Shown here: positions 7,783-63,970 of the stretch, one piece after another
Layout: each line of letters starts with the position of its first letter
Position numbering within the stretch: the first letter of the stretch is position 1
Source: Owenia fusiformis
Taxonomy: Eukaryota > Annelida > Polychaeta > Sabellida > Oweniidae
Direction of reading: 5' to 3'
Length of the DNA: 64,000 nt
Assembly (NCBI GenBank): GCA_903813345.2
Contig: CAIIXF020000012.1
Span: forward strand, 2,147,318-2,211,317
Position numbers and translations under genes: made by a program
The notes under the pieces: model-generated
Database searches by the model: none
The model's input: only the letters and a program-made list of their open reading frames with translations
What the model was told of the DNA's origin: nothing

Positions 7783-8942
7783 CTATTTTTCGTGTGCCAT
7801 ACGAGGTCGTCTATCGAGACCGTTCACCATGAGTTCAATATGGCGCAATTGGCTAGCGGTGGAGTGAGTTGGGGGTAAATTGGGGCTTATTCTGCTTGGA
7901 GAATTTGGGTTGGTTGCAACTGGAGGAGAATGCAAGGAATGGAGGCTGTTGGGAGAGCCGGGACTAGAGGCACTTAGCCGCCTTGATGCACCGCCATGCA
8001 CGATCCTGCCATTGTTACCAGAGGCAGCTAGGGGAGTACTAGTGGTCACCATGGTTGTTTTTGTATGTGGGAGGCCGTATGGATTGAATCTATTGGCACT
8101 ATTCCGTGAGGCTAGAAGCTGCGACATGTGACCGTTATGCATATGTGCAGCGGAAACATTTTCTAAAGAATGGGGGAGGGAATAATTTTGATGTAACAAT
8201 GGATGCAGTGCTGCCATCTGGCTACTGAGAAGGAAATTAGGGTGAATTGAGTTTCCTGAGCTGTGGCTGACGGTTGCTAGGTGACCCATATCAGCACCGG
8301 GGTGTGGAAGGAATGGCAAAGGTAGTGAGGTTTGAGGCATACCCGCTAAAGCATTTTGACCCAGCATCATATGCCCCATATGGAACGGTAAACTGGGACT
8401 TGCACCATAAAGTCCATTTTGATAAAGATAGGAGAACATTGGGTGATTTAATGAGGGTTGTATGACTGTTACATTGGGAGGACTAGTGTGTTCTTTTGAT
8501 CCTCGACTAGTATCTGGTCTTATTGCTGTTCTAGAATCATCCTTATGATCTCTAACAGTGTCCAATTTATCTTTATCATTGCCTGTTGTTTCCGAATGTT
8601 CTGAACTAGATCGCTTTCTTTCATGGCTTTCAACTGTAGTATTTGACATTATTGTTTGTCTTCCTTGACTGTGGCTAAGATCTGCCATTGTCGGAAAATG
8701 TTCGATAATAGGGGTGTGTAGATGTCTAATTTCTGCAGATTTCGAGGGACTAGTTATAGAGGGAGATTTGGCTGGTACTGAGGGGCTATTGTCATTGTCT
8801 TTTTCAGTGTTCTCTTTAGCGTTATCAACATCGTCATCATTGTTCCTGACGTCATCAGATGTGTCCTCAATTATACTTTTGATGCTGTAATTACTATGGC
8901 TACGCTGAGTTGTTGCAGTTTTTTCACTAGATTCATTTTCGT
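7783..8942 (-). CDS. Tbx2/3: Tbx2/3 exon 6: C-terminal regulatory region
   Basis: The terminal coding exon has acceptor TGATTTCAG before 8942 and stop TAG at 7785-7783, and encodes about 386 residues. It is low in complexity at first (Ser/Asp/Lys-rich). It then carries blocks alignable to vertebrate TBX2/3 C-termini: [45 protein letters not shown]...TTSTPLAAS, a Ser/Pro-rich stretch, and the terminal [18 protein letters not shown]. In vertebrates this part of the protein carries repression activity; the same role here is inferred from homology. No frameshift or internal stop was seen. Confidence 0.95.
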
Positions 8943-11900
8943 CTGAAATCAAAAAATACGAAGTAATTTTAATACGGAGCTTTTAATGCCGAAGCCTCAA
9001 TGATTAAAGGGCGGTCGAATCATCGAGGGTCTCTTGTCTTTAAGGAAGTAAATCAACCGAAATTAAGTTTACAAGATCATTTTAGTCTATTGTCGTTCAC
9101 TTGGCGGATTGATACATATTCAATAGTTCTTACGGGTTGAAGTGGCCATAATAACACGAGTGGGACATTTGAATAGTTCCTAAAATAAGCTCAACCTAGT
9201 CCAATTATACGGGAATTAGGTATAAAACTTTTGACGCCAATCTTTGCTAAACGTTGTCTGAATTTGCCACTTGATAGATGACATACAGAATAGACATTAT
9301 TAGAGAACGTATCCCAGTTTAATTACCTTTGATTGGCGGAGTAATATGTGGAGTTATTTGTGGAACGTTTATTGGAGTTGACATCACTTCGGGCGGATTG
9401 CTTTCCTCTGGTCTGTCATCCACACATATTTCCATATCTTCTTCATCGTCACTATTGTCATTTTCACTGTCATGGATATCACTGTGGTCGTCATGGTTAC
9501 TGTTGTCATGGTAGTCACTACACCCTGGCGACATACTGGGGCCGGATTTTCCGTCAGAACTGGCTACAGATTGTGCGTTGCTCGATGGCCCGAGTATAAG
9601 ACGTCTGCAAATAGAAAATCGGCATTCATTAAAAAGTGTGCTTGATTACCATAAACGGACCGCATAAACAATTTGAAATTATTACAGATGAATTTGTAGT
9701 TTGTTGTTTAAAAGGTTAAAACGACAGACCTCCATCCAGACAGAAGGTGAATCAAATTCCATGTCTTAGCCTTAATGTTCCCTAATCCGTCTATTGAGAA
9801 CAATAAACATCAAAGTCGAATTTAGTGATAAATGCAAACTAGAATCACGAAGCAAATCAACAAACAAACTTTTACAAAGACTACTAATACGGTAAAACTC
9901 TCAAGTGGTAAACCTATCCAAGTTTGTGTACAAATCTCTGAGTATTGGCGACTTCCACAGATCCGAATACTTTGGCCTTCCCTTGCCAAATCTACCCAAA
10001 GTAGGTGGTCAATCTGTGTACAATACCATCAATACTGACCGAACTAATGTGATGATTTCAATATTGTGAAAAATTCCCGGGGTTCTGTTTTATTAATTTA
10101 TTTACTCTGTAATATGGTCTTATTACGATTTCACGATTTAAAATGCAAGGGAATGAGTGACTCTCTCTAGTAAACTATTATAATTGTAATCCTATAAACA
10201 TACTTTACAACAAAAACTTTTCACAAAGTCAACCCCTTTAATATAGTAGTTCAGTGTAAAATGTCAACCATTTACAGAAGCTGACTGTCGCCTCGGGGCA
10301 ATCCATCTGTGTACTATAAAGTATATATTCTGTCGAGGGTTATTGTTTTTAGTAAAGTATTTGATCGAACACATTCTAAGAGTTAGAGCACATTTTCAAG
10401 AGTTTTGGTATTAAATATCCGCCAATAGAAAGCAACCTTCGATACCTAGCTAAAAGAATAACATTTATGTTAAGTATTAGGCGAAATGTCTATGATTTCT
10501 GACAGGCTTGGATTTCAAGTTAAAGACGGTGTAAACTATAAACTTTGATTTCTATGTTGTTGTTAAATCATCGGCGACGTTTTAGAAATTATTGCCTCGT
10601 TATTGCAAAATCTCTCAAAGATGTTGCGTTATTTTAAGAATGTGGTTAAAACGTCGTTTGATAAAATGCCCAAAATCAGAGAGATTTTCTTAGGCTTATT
10701 CGTCACACGAAGTTAAGAAAGATATCAAATTTCCAAGATAGGCTATATCCTTATGCGATTCTTTTAAATCCCTGTTAAGATTCAATTGAATTAACGTCAA
10801 AATTGTGTTTTTCCAGACACCACACTTGACGGTAATTCTCGTTGATTTACGCTTAAGGTACGAGTGCTCATAAAGGCTATAGATTTATTTTACAAATTGA
10901 TAAATTCGTTATAAGCTCGTAAATCGCATTTGAGACTAAGTCGTTAGACGCCAGGAATCTCTAAAAACCTCTAATTTCATTCATTTTTGCTCTTTTCAAC
11001 ATTTGGCTAATATCATCAGTGATCCTTTCTTAGTTCATTTGCGGCCATATTGAAACGTCATCGAAATTGACACTATTTTCGGGAAATATTACTCCGCGGT
11101 GATTGCTTATTATCCTCTTCATTCATCTTTCAATAGGCATCTCTAATTTATTTGTCCAATTAGGATATTACACAACAATTGTTAATACGACAAAAGTGTT
11201 ACCCTTATTGAAGGTTAGAGGTAATTACAGACCACGGTGTTTAAGTGAATGGTAAATGGTCAACAGGGACAAAAAATCCTAATCGCAATCGTATTAGCGC
11301 AAGAAAACAAGCAATTGTACAGAAAAGGCTCTCGTGATGTAATGTTATTACTCGATCTGAATTCACGAAATAAGCTAAGAGCTCAACTACTACTTGACTT
11401 TTCGAGTGGTCCAATGAAATGACAATCGCGTTAGTTGGGTACAATGAAAGCTTGCGTTCTTATGAAGTGTCTGGATTACCATTTTCCATGGCGGTGGTTA
11501 TACGATATGCTCGTAATAGAGCAATCACGGCCAAAAAGATAGTGTTTTGAACAAAATATAAATAGAACTAATGATTGACAATCTATTATTAGGATCGATA
11601 TATGATCATTGTAATTATTCAACTGGCCACGTTGTTTCTGCTTTGCTAACATTATTTACTTAAAGTATGTTTGTAAACGATTCACTATCATTGAAATGTC
11701 TGGAGGTACTGTGCAATGTGGTTGAACATGTTCACAAATATGGTATACATATTGATCGTAGAGTTGATATCTACATCCGCATCAAAAATATGTATTTTAA
11801 TAATAAACTTACTTTTTCTCACGTTTCCCTGTCCCAGTGTCTCTAAATCCTTTGGCAAATGGGTTGTAGTCAATTTTCAATTGGGTCACCTAAAAATAAA

Positions 11901-14900
11901 AACAAAAATGATTATCAATATTATTTGTTGAGGAAACACTGTTGATAAGTATTAGGTCTTACTAAAAATTATGTTTCTCTGCACTATAGACTATAGGATT
12001 TTCAATTATATTTTGCGGTTATGTATGACACCAATAAAATAATGGATTATATATTTAACTAATTATATATTCAATATGTTTTATTAATTATATGTGGTAT
12101 ATTTTCTCTATGTTATGTATAGTTCGATATCTGAAGTCAAATAGCGGATGTTTAATGGTGCATTTGATACTGAAAAACACAGAAACTTCGTACAAAAATC
12201 TGAGTCCCGAGGGAGAGCTAACTTAATAATCCATTGAACACATGTTCGACTAATTTGTTAAATTATTTCTTTATTGGTGAATTTTCACAATAATTGTGAT
12301 TTTTCTAGACCTGTGCCTTATATTTGCCACTAGGGACTGCCAAATGTAAAAATTACTATGCCAAACTGACAATTTTTTCTCATCCGTTTAGACATTTGAT
12401 TTGAGTAAAGAAGCGAAACTTCGTCGTAATTACGTGACCTCTGATCCAAACTTGGAAATATTAATTCAGTGGAAAAATGGATTGGACACCTTACACGTAT
12501 TATAGGATTTTCTCTGACACGATGTTAAAACCAAGTCCTAAATAAATACTGTCGTTTCGTTTGACCTTTGCCATCCACCACTCCTAAACTTATCAAAAAT
12601 CAAGTAATTTTGCAGACGAACAGATTCTGTTACTCCGTGGCAGGGTTCTAATCAAATGTAATCGAATTTAGGGATAAATTTTAGCAAAAAAGAACACTCC
12701 ATTCATCTTTACAATGTAATATATGTCGCTGAATATTATATTAATTACATCTGGATAATGTCGGATATAATACACAAGAGCCCGCTCAGAATTGACGCTA
12801 TTGCAGTCAAACAGAAAGATAACGACAACCGTAAATCAGTCTCTTATTAGACGTCAAGTAAAATAAGTGTTACAAACAACACTCAAGGCACCAAAAAGAT
12901 GAAAAGGCAAGATAGAAACAACCAAAGTAGCCACAAAATTGTCCGCCACTTAATCAAATGAGCGTCGAACGCCCGTAACATTATTAACACGGCTGCTAAT
13001 GGAGTAGAAATTACAGTAAAGCCATTTCCGATGTCGGAATCACTGGCGCTATATTCAGAGGCAAATAGAAAATATCAATTCAGAAGCATATTCGTCAATA
13101 TTTGAAAACAAATCAAAGTTTATGACCAGAAACCTAAAGTGCCCACATTACAACAAAAATACATAAAATCTTGTAGATTGACAGACGGAAACCAATGATC
13201 AAAAAAAATACTCTAGACATTTGTCAAATCTCTAGACATTAACTCATCAATTTATTGTGGTCATATAGCAAACCAAAAGCGTTTGAAAAAACGCAAAGGG
13301 CAACAGTTGTAAGCTGTATACATTAACTCCCCTACCTTTTCATTTTGATAGGCGGTCACTGCAATGAACGATGTTTCCTTGAAAACGTATGTTCTGAATT
13401 GGCTGTATGGCAACTTCAAAATGTCGTTCGCTCTCACCAGGTGGAACCGTGGTTGGTATTTGTGCATCGAATTCAGGATGGTCTGCTAATAAAAAGATTC
13501 AGTTAGTTGTGTGCTATTACAATTTTCAGTAGTGTTCGTATTCAGGATCGTCTGCTAATAAAACATTCAGTAAGTGTTCGTATTCAGGATCGTCTGCCGA
13601 TAAAAATATTCAGTAAGTGTTCGTATTCAGGATCGTCTGCTAATAAAACATTCAGTTAGTGTTCGTATTCAAGATCGTCTGCTAATAAAAAATATCCAGT
13701 AAGTGTTCGTATTCAGGATCGTCTGCTAATAAAAAATATTCATTAAGTGTTCGTATTTAGGATCGTCTGCTAATAAAAATATTCAGTTAATGATTTGTTA
13801 AAATATCATATTGACAGTACAGTCCGGCACAAAGCCCCATTAAAATATAGCTCATAACTGCATCATGATACTGAATAAAAGTGACGCTTTATGTTTAGAT
13901 TTTATGGAGTTTTGCATTGGACTGAATTTAATATACATAATACAAATGATGGACTTTTCGGGTATACTGGTGTACTCCTTTAGACATATGAAACACCTTG
14001 ATGGATGCTTTTAAGACAATTTACGTTTGGCAACTTGGGAAAATCAACGATTTTTCACAAATATACTATGGAGCTATTGTCTATGGAAAACACAACCCAT
14101 GCTACTATAATCATAACAGCAATAGTGAGATGAGGGTTTATTCAGACGTTATAGTTGTTATTTAATGAAGCAGAAATTAGATTACTCCCGGGGGAGAACT
14201 CGGTATCAAATGTACCTCTCTCCCCCGTACCTCAATCCAATAGGAAATCCACATCTTTGTAGCTAATGCCACGCGCGAAACACATTACCCCATCAATGTG
14301 TGTTTTGCTAATCGTTTGTATACAAAGCATTACAATGTTGTGTGTATTAAGCCTAGTTTTGTATTCAATATTAAACGGTACTGTCACTTTAAGGGGCTAT
14401 GAGTGTTAATTTCGTCGAATATACTGTCACCAAAAATGACGTATTGATACAAGGGTTAGTCATCAAACACTAAAAATATACCTTCTGATTTTTTGGACAA
14501 ACTGAATTAAGTTTTTGATCAATTTTATTTGAATTATAAACGACATGACGACACTTTAGCACACACTATACACCTCGTGGTAGCCTAAATATACACGTGT
14601 AAAGCTCGATCAAACTTTTAAATCACTGGGATTTGACTGAAAAAAGTCGGAGAATGGTACAGGAGAGTATGACAAAATGAAAGTGACAATTAAAAATCAT
14701 CTTTCGAACATTGATCATGTTTTAGATCATTATATTGTATAAGCATGATTCACCGAGTCCCTCTTTATATAACTTGGCGAGAGCATCAATATTCAAGAAA
14801 TAGATGTGGAAATCAAAATGAAAAACAGGTGATATCAAAGATATCCCAAAAGAGATACAAGTAATAGCACCATGGTGACCAAATACAGAGAGCAACAAGA

Positions 14901-17900: not shown

Positions 17901-20900
17901 CATGTAAACTATGTCACAAAACATCATACGTAGGTGAACACAAAATCATAGGCTTTAGTCCAAACATAGACCCTAAAGATACTAAGAAGGCGACAGAGAG
18001 GAGACATACGAAAACCGTGTGACGGATGTTCACGGATGTTCATTTAGTACTAGACTGGAAAGAATGTAAGAGATGGGGGGTGTCTATCATGGGCTAATGA
18101 ATGATGGTGAGACGTTTTGGTGTCAAGGATACTTCAAAGTCCCTCAGACATGAATACTATCGATAGTAGGGAGATCGGGGCCTGATAATGAGGCGCAATA
18201 TGCTAGTGTCACGCTTTCCATTGTCTAAAATGACCATGAGTAGACTCAATGATATTCATTATAGTAATAACCGTGATACTATGTCAATGGGCTGCATTGT
18301 GCCAGCCTGATAACACTGATGGGCTATATTTATTTCATAGGGTCATTTTGTTTTATCGATAATATTTCAATCGAAAGATAGTATCTCAATTTCAAATTTT
18401 GTTCTCGGCTCATAAAGGTATCATCACCTGGCACGGCATTGTGCGAAATGATGCCTTTTGATACCCCCGTCGCCAATGTCCGGGTTTTTCGTTCAGTGCG
18501 TTTGCGTCACATTAGGGACCCATTGAATGGAACTGTTTTGAAAACGCCCCGACTCAACACCAGATCGGAATATTGATTTCAAATTCGATTTCCGACTTTC
18601 GTATCGACAAAAATATTGCATGCGAGAAAATACTTAGTTTATAAATTACACTAAAAGCAAAATTAAGCTAATTTCCCTTTCACTTTGATAAATATTTAAT
18701 GATGATCAAGCAAAGGCTAAACAGGATGGTATGCACATCAATGCAGATTAACGCGCTAGAATGGATAAATCACATGAACCCAATATAATCCGACACGCAT
18801 TGGACTTCAACCATTACATCAAGTTTTCAATTGTTTTTCACCAAGCCCCTTTGTCCCATATCCCTCCCCAACAGATACGAAAATATACATGGCGACAATG
18901 ATCAGCGACTTGACGGCAGACGATAACTCCAAAGACCCGGATGTTGAGTTATTTAAGGTGGGTAAGTCTCATGATCGGTCAATCATGGATAATGATATAA
19001 AAGCGAAGGCGACAGCAAAGCATTAGATACTTGCACATTCGTGTTATTTTACTCATGTGAGAAAGAAGTTGATTAAGCGAAAGCTGAGTAGCAAAGTATC
19101 GCCTTCTTACTATTAATTTACAAGAAAATGCTGTTAACTCGAGAAGATTTGCTTTTATCTTATTTGATCAAGCGAATATGATTTAATTGTGTTGATTAGA
19201 CAAGTCCGTAGTTTTCACGCATGGCTGTACTATTAAACTGGTATTTCTTGTGCGCAAGGGTCACATTGTATAACACGTTACTTTCCATGAACGAAATGAA
19301 CAACAACACCAGTGTACGTCTGAGCCATTTGTTTTCGTCTCAGCCACTAGAGCCACAAGGTCTATGACAAATATACCCCGAAGCGATTTCGGTATTGGGA
19401 ATTGACAAAATGTGACATTTGAGATTTGCCTTTTGAGACCAATTTCAACAAGATTACACAATAAAATGTTTTTAAAAAATCAGAAAGGTCCAACGAGCAT
19501 TGAGCGCTGAAAAGACACCGATCATGAGGGGTTAAGTGGCTTCTAGTGTTCCAAGTATGTAACTTAGCACTTATTTGCGTGTTGAACACCAAAGCCTGTT
19601 TGGTTCAGAATTCAAATAAAACGTCCCTAACCATTTTTCTACAATGCAAACAGGTTTCTGTATTACACACAAAAACCCTCGAAAAGTCGTCTCTTTCAAC
19701 GATAATGTGCTTTTAAAAGAAAGTTTAATAGCCTCCGGGGGTATTGATTTGATACAAAAGTGTGTTTAGATAAAACTGTGTATTTTTACCTTGAGATAAC
19801 AGCTTTACCCCTCAAGGAGCCAGTGAGTGTTGGGTATCCGCCTGAACCAATGTTTCTGGCTCGAGCATTACAAGTTTATAAACTAATTTCAAAGGCAAAC
19901 ACCTTCATAACGTAAATTGTTTGGGTTGTCTTGACTAGGCCCTCACACTTGGTGAAAACAGCCAGCTCTGGGAATATCGCTGATTTTAGCAAGTTCCTTT
20001 GATATTTTATACTACTTGTATATAGTTGTGTTTTTAGAGAAACTTTATACCATCAACAAACTACAACATAAACTATATAATGTTAACTCACTTGTGATAG
20101 ACCTAACTTTGATCATTTATACATTTGCTTTTATAATTGTATATATATAGTCTACCAGTATTCTCGCATCAAGCCTCTGCTTCCCAATGTTTATTTCTCC
20201 CACGTTGCTTACATCAACTATTCTTGCATCAAATTTCTGGTCACTCCCCCGCTTTGTAGAACAACTGAGGCAGGGACGCGCGGAATGATACAAGACTAAA
20301 GTCGCGAGGTTATACAGGGGCTTGATGCGAGACTACTTTACGTATATCCGGTAAGTGTGAAATACTTACAAAGCCGTGTTTGTCTGAGATATTATTCGTC
20401 AGCTTCAGTTTGTGGAATGACACTAATTTGGACATCCATTGTTCTCCGCTACTTGGAGAATCGGGATGAATATACATTCGTTTCGGCATTTCTGGGTCAG
20501 CTTTTCCGGCGACCATCCATCGGCTGTTGTGAAATTTATATCGACAATCGTCAACAGCGACCAAGTCCATTAGGAGTATATATTTGGCTTTTTTGTCAAG
20601 TCCAGATAATTTAACTTTGTATGCGGGAAACATTCGCCTGGAAGCACAGTAATTAAAACATATAGATATGACGACACTAATGTATTAGGACAGTTTTATG
20701 CAATAACGGGTGGAGTAATTATTAGCCGTTTAGAACAATAAATTATAACGGCTGACATGTGGAAACTCACTATATAAATTCATCATATATTTCTTGTAAA
20801 ATTGTTAAAAAGTATATATCTCGAGTAAATTTAATTGAACATCTTGGGTCTATCAAGGTGTTTCATATTTTTGATCACTGAAGGATCGCATTAGTTTAAC

Positions 20901-53715: not shown

Positions 53716-54464
53716 ATTCTGGCTATTATTACCCATTGATGCAATGCACCTGTTCTATTTCAAGAAGCATTTACATGTTAAGAAATTTTGTTCAAATTAG
53801 AGTTATTAATTTTTAAATGGTTTGAAATCGCTTAGCTTATTTAATTAATTCTTGGAAAGATGCTGCTTTCAATCAAATTAAAGTTTTTTTTACAATTTAC
53901 AATGCATAGTGGCTTATCATCAAAGAAGCTAACATTTTAAATGTGTGGGGAATTCAAATATTAAAAAAATTAAGATCGAGCAACTTTTTCAAAAAAACTA
54001 GATAATAAAGTATTCGAATGGAAACAAATATTTTCAAAAAATTACCATTATATCACCAATTTTCAAAACTTTCTTCACTTTCCTGCACACCATTTTGATC
54101 TATGAAGACAATATTCTAAAATTTAAAAAAATTTAAAAAGGTTGCTTGCTAGATTTGATTTGTGCTCAATTAAACAAAGTCTGTATTTTATATTTATACA
54201 TTATATTTATAAATACATTCACATATTTACACAATCTCCTCTATATTACAATGTTTAATTTTATTTATATTCACAATTAAAATATTAATTGATAATAATA
54301 CACACACATGTATAACAATGGTGTTTTAGATACAGTTTTTTCCTAATGTCAGCTCCAAATGAGATTTTGTCCATCTTTAATATAACTTTAGTATAACATC
54401 CACATCCTTCTGTTGGAACTGACCATCATTTCTTGTGTTGAGATCCTAGTATCAAGCACGACTT

Positions 54465-54637
54465 CAGACTGACATAGCATAACCTGAAAATAGAAAGAGT
54501 TCCCATTTACATGCAATTTTTGCAGACTGTTAGGAGAAAATGCTGATTTCTGACTGACGTAGCATGGCCTGAAAAGAGAAAGAGTTCTCATTTACATGCA
54601 GTTTTTGCAGACTGTTGCGAGAAAATGCTCAATTCTG
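54465..54637. repeat. 85-bp tandem duplication
   Basis: Two adjacent copies (TAGCAT-CCTG-AAAGAGTT-TTACATGCA-TTTTGCAGACTGTT) start about 85 bp apart (TAGCAT at 54475 and 54560), with roughly 88-90% identity. Confidence 0.88.
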
Positions 54638-56359
54638 ATTGTGGTTTATAGGTTTCTAATTTTTGAAGTTTTGAAAACGTGAATATTAATCCACATATAT
54701 GGCAAAATATAACAAAGAGATAAATATTTCCTATATCTGAAAAATTGCTGCATTTTAGTTTTGATCAAACAAAATGTGTTCAAATTTTGAGGTTCTTTAA
54801 CAAAGTAATATATTGCAGTTTAAAGAATTAAATCCCTATAAACAGTATAAATGAAGCAGCTTAAACTCTGACCTTGACAATATTTACACAAAATATAGAT
54901 ATACATGTATGACAACTGAATTGAAAAGATATTCAACAAGCTATCAATCATTTGTCAATTGTCACATTTGAATTTGATCTCAAATCAAAATCACTCATCT
55001 AGGATCTATAAAAATGTGTGCTAGGAATTCAGTGACACTTATTTTTCCAACATTTGTAATTACTTTGCATTTGTAATCAATACTTTGACATTTCAATTTT
55101 GAAAAATAACAGTTATGTAACAAAAGCAACAATTTTATTTTCTGTTCACACAATATGTACAACTTTAACAATTAAAATGTGAATAATAATTACAACTTAT
55201 GTAACCTTAACCATCATAATTAAGGACAGTGGGCTATTATGTATCATTACAAAAAAGTGATTTTCCTTATCAGTCCATTACATCACAAAATATGTACAAA
55301 AAAATGTGAACTCCCTTCGAAGAAATGTTACCATATGGGTCAGTTATATAGCATACAATAGGCATATACTATGACAAAATACAAGTTTACTTTTATAGTA
55401 TAATGATATTACAGAAACAATGTATAATTTCCAAAAAACAATTTGTTCTGCTGAGAAAATGACATTAAATAATAAGTGACAAGTAAAATACGATGAGGTG
55501 CTGATTGGGGTGACATATTACATAAAAGCGCCCGGCTACTCATTTCTAGAATGGGTTATTTCAGAAACCTGGAATTTCCTACTTTTGTTCGTTTCTCAGA
55601 TCACTTATTTTATTCTGTTTATTCTCATTTCTGCAGTGGAGCTCTTCAATTGGGAGGGGAAAACATGTTTTCTTAAAAGACCAACAGATTACCCTCAAAG
55701 TTTGCTCCAATCTCCATGTTTGGTTTAACATGGGACTTACAGAGTGGTATTTTCTACCAATTTTTTTTGTTCATTCTTTCGTTGCAAATGCAGAAAAAAT
55801 ATCAGAAATGAATCAAGACTTTTGCATCTTCTCAAATGAATTATTTTCCTCTAATGTATCTTTCATGGTACAGTGTAAACAAAGACTTGAAGTGGTATCA
55901 TATTTCAGAAATAAAGATCAGTGGGAATGTGATGTGCTCGGTTCACTGATCACGATTAATGAAAATGTAAAAATACTTCAAACATTGAATTGTTAGTTTC
56001 TGGCATTATTAGAGAATATTAAAGACCATTATACCTTGTGGTTTCACGTTGAAAATAAACAACCAAGGAATATGATGATGCTATCAAAATATCAAATTGA
56101 TGTGAAATTCTGATAGGAGATAACTTGTGTGAAATGAAACTGGTGCACACAAGGATTTTCCATAGTGGAACTCTCAAAACCAAAGGACTAAGCTAACTAA
56201 GCTAACTAACCTGAGCTAAGAAAATGCTCAGATTGCATCAAATAATGTCTTCGAAAAAACATTTTTTCTGGGGGAACACACCCCGGACCCCCCCCCCCAA
56301 GATCAGACATCCCCAAGTAGGTGTACCAGCTCAAAATATAGCCCTTGCACCCATGGTTC

Positions 56360-56990
56360 TCCAGTCATTCTCTTCAATTGGGTGTTGTTCCTAAGTCATC
56401 CTCTTCAATGCAACAGGGCATTGTTCTTAAGTTATCCTCTTTAATATGGCACCGTTCTAAAACTGTTCTAAAGTGATTAGTTTCAATAGGGCATTGTTCT
56501 CAAGTCATCTTTTTCAACAGGGCATTATTCCCAAGTCATCCTTTAAAACAGGGCACTGTTCCAAAGTCATCCTTTTAACAGGGCATTGTTCCAAAGTCAT
56601 TATTTTCAACAGGGCATTGTTCCCAAGTCATCCTTTTCAACAGGGCACTGTTCCCAAGTCATACTTTTCAACAGGGCACTGTTCCCAAGTCATACTTTTC
56701 AACAAGGCACTGTTCCAAAGTCATCCTTTTCAACAGGGCACTGTTCCCAAGTCATCCTTTTCAACAGGGCATCGTTCCAAAGTCATCCTTTTCAACAGGG
56801 CATTGTTCCCAAGTCATCCTTTTCAACAGGGCACTGTTCCCAAGTCATACTTTTCAACAGGGCACTGTTCCAAAGTCATCCTTTTCAACAGGACACTGTT
56901 CTAAAGTCATCCTCTTCAATAGGGCATTGTTCCCAAGTCATTCTGTTCAACAGAACATTGATCTAAAGTCATTCTTCTCAACAGGGTCTC
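56360..56990. repeat. 31-bp minisatellite, about 20 copies
   Basis: The unit CAACAGGGCACTGTTCCCAA plus GTCATCCTTTT recurs at 31-bp steps (for example 56641, 56672, 56703). Edge copies are degenerate. Because 31 is not a multiple of 3, the reading frame rotates through all three phases of the unit, giving long stop-free but meaningless ORFs (56473-56966). It is preceded by a C-rich run at 56289. Confidence 0.95.
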
Positions 56991-62639: not shown

Positions 62640-62752
62640 TTATGCTTCATATTTAAGGGTCTTATTTCACATTTGAGGACCCTGCTTCTCATTTGAGGGC
62701 ATTATTTTATATTTGAGGACCTTACTTCATAAGTGAGGGCTTTATTTTACCC
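62640..62752. repeat. Diverged outlier block of the 20-bp satellite
   Basis: About five degenerate copies of a 20-bp unit (TTATTTCACATTTGAGGACC-like), clearly related to the array at 63545-63970 and separated from it by ~800 bp of different sequence. Confidence 0.75.
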
Positions 62753-63535: not shown

Positions 63536-63544
63536 TACAAATGA

Positions 63545-63970
63545 GTGCCATACTTCACATTTGAGGGCATTACTTCATATCCGATGGCCATACATCACAT
63601 TTGAGGACCTTACTTCACATTTGAGGGCATTACTTCATATCCAAGGGCCTTACTTCACATTTGAGGGCATTACTTCATATCCAATGGCCTTACGTCATAT
63701 TTTAGGGCCTTACTTCACATTTGAGGGCATTTCTTCATATCCAATGGTCTTACGTCATATTTTTGGGCCTTACTTCACATTTGAGGGCATTACTTCATAT
63801 CCAATGGCCTTATGTCATATTTTAGGGCCTTACTTCACATTTGAGGGCATTACTTCATATCCAATGGCCTTACATCATATTTTAGGGCCTTCACTTCACA
63901 TTTGAGGGCATTACTTTATATCCAATGGCCTTACTTCACATTTGAGGGTTCACATTTGAGGCTTCACATG
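63545..63970. repeat. 20-bp satellite with 60-bp higher-order period
   Basis: TTACTTCACATTTGAGGGCA and two variant 20-mers alternate to give a 60-bp repeat, very regular from 63661 to 63900. The 114-codon ORF across it is a by-product, because 60 is divisible by 3. The array runs nearly to the window's end. Confidence 0.95.

Follow-up and report, generated by a model that had tools for sequence, protein, structure and literature searches.

A minisatellite resembling amphioxus mirages, apparently copied from the intron 2/exon 3 junction of a Tbx2/3 gene

Minisatellite-like duplications of exon-intron boundaries have been described in amphioxus under the name of “mirages” (PMC3087553, PMC3902484). 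The genes reported there to carry them are Adh3, the globins BflGb6 and BflGb9, troponin C and PGBD5, the last having been added in PMC3902484, which cites Adh and troponin C. The mirage of BflGb6 repeats the 3' end of an intron together with the start of the exon, in six or three units depending on the haplotype; its units are homogenised inside the array and not at its edge, and RT-PCR suggested undisturbed splicing (PMC3087553). Mirages are also characterised by unstable length, between haplotypes or in somatic cells. Splice-junction sequence is also duplicated in alleles of the human CBS gene. In c.844_845ins68, the intron 7/exon 8 junction is duplicated, with a strong preference for the more distal site (PMC2630376, which speaks of a “donor” site, whereas a 3' splice site is named in the title of Romano 2002, cited there); the 31-bp VNTR c.1444_1467+7(16_21) covers the end of an exon and the first 7 bases of the intron (PMC2630376). 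More broadly, human segmental duplications contain minisatellite units averaging 30 bp, in about four repeats, some of them at exon-intron boundaries, and an alternative transcript was supported in 66% of the intron modifications (PMC2812944). In Drosophila, intron gain by tandem duplication has been described in which proto-splice sites within coding exons are duplicated (PMC2891723), and in the merle allele of dog PMEL the length of a sequence decides between the true and a cryptic acceptor (PMC7349775).

The array considered here lies in a Tbx2/3 gene on the minus strand of a 64,000-nucleotide stretch of Owenia fusiformis DNA, which we will refer to as “the window” (GC content, 34.9%). The gene model has six coding exons and encodes 755 aa, with a GT donor and an AG acceptor in all five introns; exon numbers refer to coding exons only, counted from the ATG chosen in this analysis. 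The first coding exon (37407-37070) starts at this ATG. Exon 2 (20637-20370) ends at a gtaagt donor in phase 0, located at 20370 as a preliminary description of this DNA had proposed, which is the partner of both the true and the decoy acceptors. Exon 3 (13482-13336; 147 nt, phase 0) encodes a segment ending in TAYQNEK and matches TBX3 1h6f. Exons 4 (11889-11813), 5 (9604-9327) and 6 (8942-7783, including the stop) occupy, with their introns, positions 7783-11889. A single T-box was detected at residues 88-268 of the model (PF00907, E=1.2e-81; Pfam), whose best match among the 14 matched PDB sequences is TBX3 1h6f (348.9 bits), followed by TBX5 (231.4) and TBX1 (221.1). Judged by these structure-match scores, which do not separate TBX2 from TBX3, the domain is closest to the TBX2/3 group. 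The sequence around the exon 2/3 junction is the same in TBX3 1h6f.

Within intron 2, a short way upstream of exon 3, Tandem Repeats Finder reported an array of about six copies with a period of 42-44 bp (13521-13787), for which an 85-bp dimer period scored slightly higher (437) than the periods of 42-44 bp (425 and 395). Six units each copy the 3' splice site, with a branch-point-like box, a T-run and CAG, followed by some 16 bp derived from exon 3; read along the gene, a unit runs from the exon-like ACGATCCTGAATACGA through a ACACTTACTGAAT-like stretch and a T-run to, usually, TTAGCAG. The true 3' splice site (13483-13510, minus strand) comprises a CTAAC branch-point-like box, whose A is 21 nt from the intron end, a T-run and TAGCAG, the first exonic base being 13482. 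The first “exonic” bases of the decoys are 13766, 13722, 13678, 13636, 13593 and 13551, so that the six decoy acceptor units of 42-44 bp announced upstream of exon 3 in the preliminary description were all found where it had placed them. From the outer edge inwards along the minus strand, the array starts with the intronic half of the outermost decoy (13767-13790; TTAAC box, T-run, TAGCAG) and continues from junction 13766 to the acceptor of junction 13722 (13723-13766, 44 bp), from 13722 to the acceptor of 13678 (13679-13722, 44 bp), from 13678 to the acceptor of 13636 (13637-13678, 42 bp), from 13636 to the acceptor of 13593 (13594-13636, 43 bp), from 13593 to the acceptor of 13551 (13552-13593, 42 bp) and from 13551 to a decayed acceptor, TAATAGCAC (13519-13511), which closes a segment of 41 bp (13511-13551). 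This extra copy, situated between decoy 13551 and the true site, has CAC in the place of CAG (virtual junction, 13510), and its exon part is apparently mostly gone.

The CAG acceptor is intact in all six decoys, and the TAGCAG (NAGNAG) form is present in the true site and in five of them. The two motifs said earlier to flank every decoy junction proved somewhat less constant: TTATTAGCAG is exact before five of the six junctions, being replaced by TTATCGGCAG at 13593, and ACGATCCTGAATACG is exact after four, with one change each at 13766 and 13678. Across the six units, only 2 of 90 exon-derived bases depart; compared with the units, the true junction shows 2 differences among 15 exonic bases. 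As in mirages, the inner units are alike and the copy at the inner edge has diverged.

The relationship between array and junction was evaluated by aligning the true junction and 40 bp on either side of it with the doubled repeat unit. An ungapped match of 41 bp (25 intronic and 16 exonic bases) with 37 identities and a score of 62 was obtained, versus a maximum of 30 among 5000 dinucleotide-shuffled units; taken by itself, the exon part gives a weaker result (a score of 22, equalled or passed by 8 of the 5000 shuffled units). By these scores, the resemblance of the array to the junction is not a matter of chance, and the earlier statement that both are nearly the same is borne out (37 of 41 bases). 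Like those of mirages, the tandem units combine sequence from the intronic and the exonic side of a single splice boundary. The exon side of the junction encodes TILNS, identical in TBX3 1h6f; since these bases encode a T-box stretch conserved in this way, the array would have been copied from the junction and not the reverse. Ten junction stretches of the gene were queried, and none of the other nine had tandem copies; for the exon 2 donor, intron 2 contained one weak match of 18 bp (20174-20157, E 0.018). A dispersed repeat was rejected within the window, as the best unit match outside the array (13431-13830 masked) scored 27, inside the range of best scores from 20 dinucleotide-shuffled windows (25-37). 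By BLAST, the best match of the array elsewhere in the window lies over the exon 5 acceptor (9632-9602, E=0.057).

Broadly, we propose tandem duplication of a segment of about 43 bp over the intron 2/exon 3 boundary (at least from intron -25 to exon +16), which then may have grown by slippage or unequal exchange, the presumed modes of expansion, into a minisatellite of the mirage type. The upstream copies would have turned into intron, each of them keeping a near-complete local 3' splice site; as the 3'-most acceptor alone would be joined to the intact exon after each duplication, it alone would give the full protein. Ordinary minisatellite turnover is visible in the units, in their lengths of 42-44 bp, in the best-scoring 85-bp dimer and in the decayed edge copy. 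Slippage of the junction had already been put forward as the origin of the array, and its derivation from the junction is strongly supported by the alignment.

Eight other tandem arrays of the window were scanned with loose acceptor and donor motifs, and several acceptor- or donor-like matches were found in two of them, in regions with no gene model. On the minus strand, 12 loose acceptor-like matches lie in the array at 54463-54638 (85-bp unit, 2.1 copies) and 9 donor-like GTRAG matches in that at 63542-63948. The latter and the array at 62643-62749 are tandem repeats of 20/40/60 bp whose consensus units, built around TTTGAGGGC, are alike. Furthermore, a 31-bp minisatellite of about 16 copies (56481-56986) is overlapped by long ORFs in three plus-strand frames, as is to be expected of a period that is not a multiple of three. 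Ten ORFs picked from the 97 other ORFs of at least 65 aa gave no Pfam match above the curated cut-off; two weak matches among them, far below it, were taken as chance.

Locally, the decoys and the true acceptor are hard to tell apart. Over the 15 bases from -13 to +2, three of the six decoys match the true site fully, two show a single difference and one shows two; the units thus carry potential splice signals, with CAG in all six and 13-15 of 15 bases as in the true site. The true site and every decoy have a branch-point-like box of the form yTnAy at 20-22 nt from the intron end, and the stricter yTrAy box is found in the true site (CTAAC) and in only three decoys. Scored with a crude profile, decoys 13722 and 13678 reached 4.11, the true site 4.01 and the other four decoys 2.28-2.82. 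Eight of the 329 AGs of intron 2 reach the score of the true site, which is itself one of them, and five AGs above it lie outside the array, for which reason local score was rejected as a predictor of usage. Structural occlusion of the decoys was not supported either, as the RNA of the array (13483-13800, minus strand) folds more poorly than each of 100 dinucleotide-shuffled sequences (z 2.41); given this weak folding, the decoys should be accessible. Being nearly identical, the local signals cannot explain why decoys would be ignored. It is the context that differs: the complete exon 3 with its donor lies downstream of the true site, whereas each decoy is followed by about 16 bp of exon-like sequence and then by intron. 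We infer that the 3'-most acceptor is most likely preferred over the decoys, the spliceosome mainly using it because only there do the whole exon 3 and its donor follow; decoy use, if any, would be leakage cleared by nonsense-mediated decay (NMD). In this sense, the minigenes with duplicated splice sites of Reed and Maniatis (1986) reportedly pointed to exon sequence as a determinant. Two further features of the acceptor can be mentioned. Use of the upstream AG of its NAGNAG (13488-13483, minus strand) would add one glutamine between HGF and TILN, in the T-box. Besides, AGCAGAC, present at the true acceptor (13487-13481) and at all the decoys except 13593, equals a heptamer reported as enriched in introns flanking multiple alternative exons of C. 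elegans (PMC4039745), a match that is probably a coincidence of the AG/AC junction.

The consequences of decoy splicing can be predicted from the sequence. Exon 2 ends in phase 0, so every decoy would be entered in frame and translated as TILNTNT, with a stop following at codon 8, 18, 9, 9, 9 and 22 after junctions 13766, 13722, 13678, 13636, 13593 and 13551, respectively. A premature stop, as in a poison splice site, is therefore predicted for six decoys out of six. The preliminary description was right in expecting a retained frame with a stop within about 25 codons, and in placing most of the stops at codon eight or nine (four of the six copies). On the other hand, it overstated the loss to the protein as the second half of the T-box: the junction falls after residue 202, and what would be missing from the product is the final 66 of the 181 T-box residues, roughly one third. 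The 5' extensions of exon 3 would measure 284, 240, 196, 154, 111 and 69 nt in the same order, with the stops 150-407 nt upstream of the exon 3 end. Transcripts with a stop more than 50-55 nt before an exon junction are subject to NMD (the 50-55 nt rule), so the decoy-spliced transcripts are predicted to be NMD substrates. The array has no donor-like GT, its only three GT dinucleotides being found in AATGTTTTA (twice) and ATTGTAATA; recursive splicing and cassette exons are thus ruled out, and a 5' extension of exon 3 is all that the decoys could produce.

Taken together, we consider it quite probable that the array is a by-product of slippage or unequal exchange from the intron 2/exon 3 junction, largely ignored by the spliceosome and presumably near-neutral; the amphioxus mirages, with their apparently normal splicing, make such a by-product a more likely reading than a switch. 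It is unlikely that a few per cent of the splicing goes to the decoys, with NMD clearing the products of a slightly deleterious but tolerated array: the near-complete local splice signals and the weakly structured RNA would allow it, against which the amphioxus mirages are reported to give regular mRNA. This splicing noise differs from the by-product reading in degree only. Tandem arrays are error-prone in assembly, and the copy number given here could be wrong. In fact, the BflGb6 mirage appeared aberrantly assembled in the draft genome (PMC3087553); the present units, however, differ by substitutions and indels and include a decayed edge copy, unlike the stutter of a single unit, and a misassembly of the copy number or of the whole array as the explanation is most improbable.

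A functional role was the other possibility raised in the preliminary description, in the form of a tunable brake on productive splicing. Spelled out here, decoys would compete with the true acceptor, and a copy number varying by slippage would set the share of Tbx2/3 transcripts going to NMD. This is decidedly unlikely in our opinion, and we find it very unlikely that the six decoys act as a copy-number rheostat, diverting Tbx2/3 pre-mRNA to NMD while slippage alters the dose between individuals or cells. Exon 2a of human TBX3 is taken here to lie in the intron matching the array-bearing one. Alternative splicing of human TBX3 within the T-box through this exon (PMC7044113) would be in line with a brake, as would the merle allele of dog PMEL, in which length tunes whether the true or a cryptic acceptor is used (PMC7349775), and the boundary repeats of human segmental duplications that alter splicing in some genes (PMC2812944). 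So would the array itself, with CAG, T-run and yTnAy box kept in all six decoys, any of which would lead to a stop at codon 8-22 and, by the rule given above, to predicted NMD. Nonetheless, one edge copy has lost its AG, the strict yTrAy box is found in only three of the six decoys, and the published mirages are reported without disturbance of splicing. The retention of AG is also what chance would give. In the ungapped columns -13 to -4 and +1 to +22, which leave out the branch-point columns and indels, 8 of the 192 unit bases outside CAG deviate from the majority (4.2%), a divergence at which 12 intact AG bases out of 12 are expected 60% of the time; with P=0.6 for zero changes, selection on AG retention was set aside as a test without power. 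The exon extensions are free of reading-frame constraint, and neither of the tests of selection (unit lengths against frame, AG retention) favours function. Of the slippage and the brake originally proposed, derivation from the junction has thus gained support, and frame-free extensions, chance AG retention and the published parallels leave the brake without any of a positive kind.

If the decoys are ignored, the locus would be a natural experiment in which one of several near-identical local acceptors is chosen, and which, if true, isolates what the exon context downstream contributes to the selection of a 3' splice site. Should the decoys be used, the locus would represent a control, tuned by slippage, of the dose of a developmental regulator. 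In both cases, a T-box gene joins the genes with junction-spanning minisatellites. Among other known systems, the intronic minisatellites of an earthworm metallothionein and an abalone TSSK1-like gene are not described as splice-junction copies in the passages dealing with them (PMC12783039, PMC6905558), nor is CeRep25B of C. elegans in the corresponding account (PMC4039745). The dog merle PMEL allele also has a slippage-prone sequence at an acceptor, but this is a SINE with variable poly(A)/poly(T) and not a set of junction copies, and its phenotype is known. The repeats of human segmental duplications share with the Tbx2/3 array the minisatellite units and, in some cases, the location at exon-intron boundaries; unlike it, they were found as differences between recent paralogues, and can create new introns and alternative transcripts (PMC2812944). 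The CBS alleles also duplicate splice-junction sequence, although ins68 is a single 68-bp copy and the VNTR lies on the donor side of the exon, with 16-21 units. The amphioxus mirages come closest. As in them, the Tbx2/3 array is arranged head-to-tail and its units join a splice signal with the first part of an exon, and, as in BflGb6, it is located at a 3' splice site and has six units, similar inside and diverged at the edge. The units of 42-44 bp differ from those of BflGb6 (150-160 bp; 10-72 bp in Adh3), and the gene is a different one, a developmental regulator, with an anatomy described here from one sequence. By this anatomy, the Tbx2/3 array is to be classed as a mirage, a little-known but already described kind of repeat.
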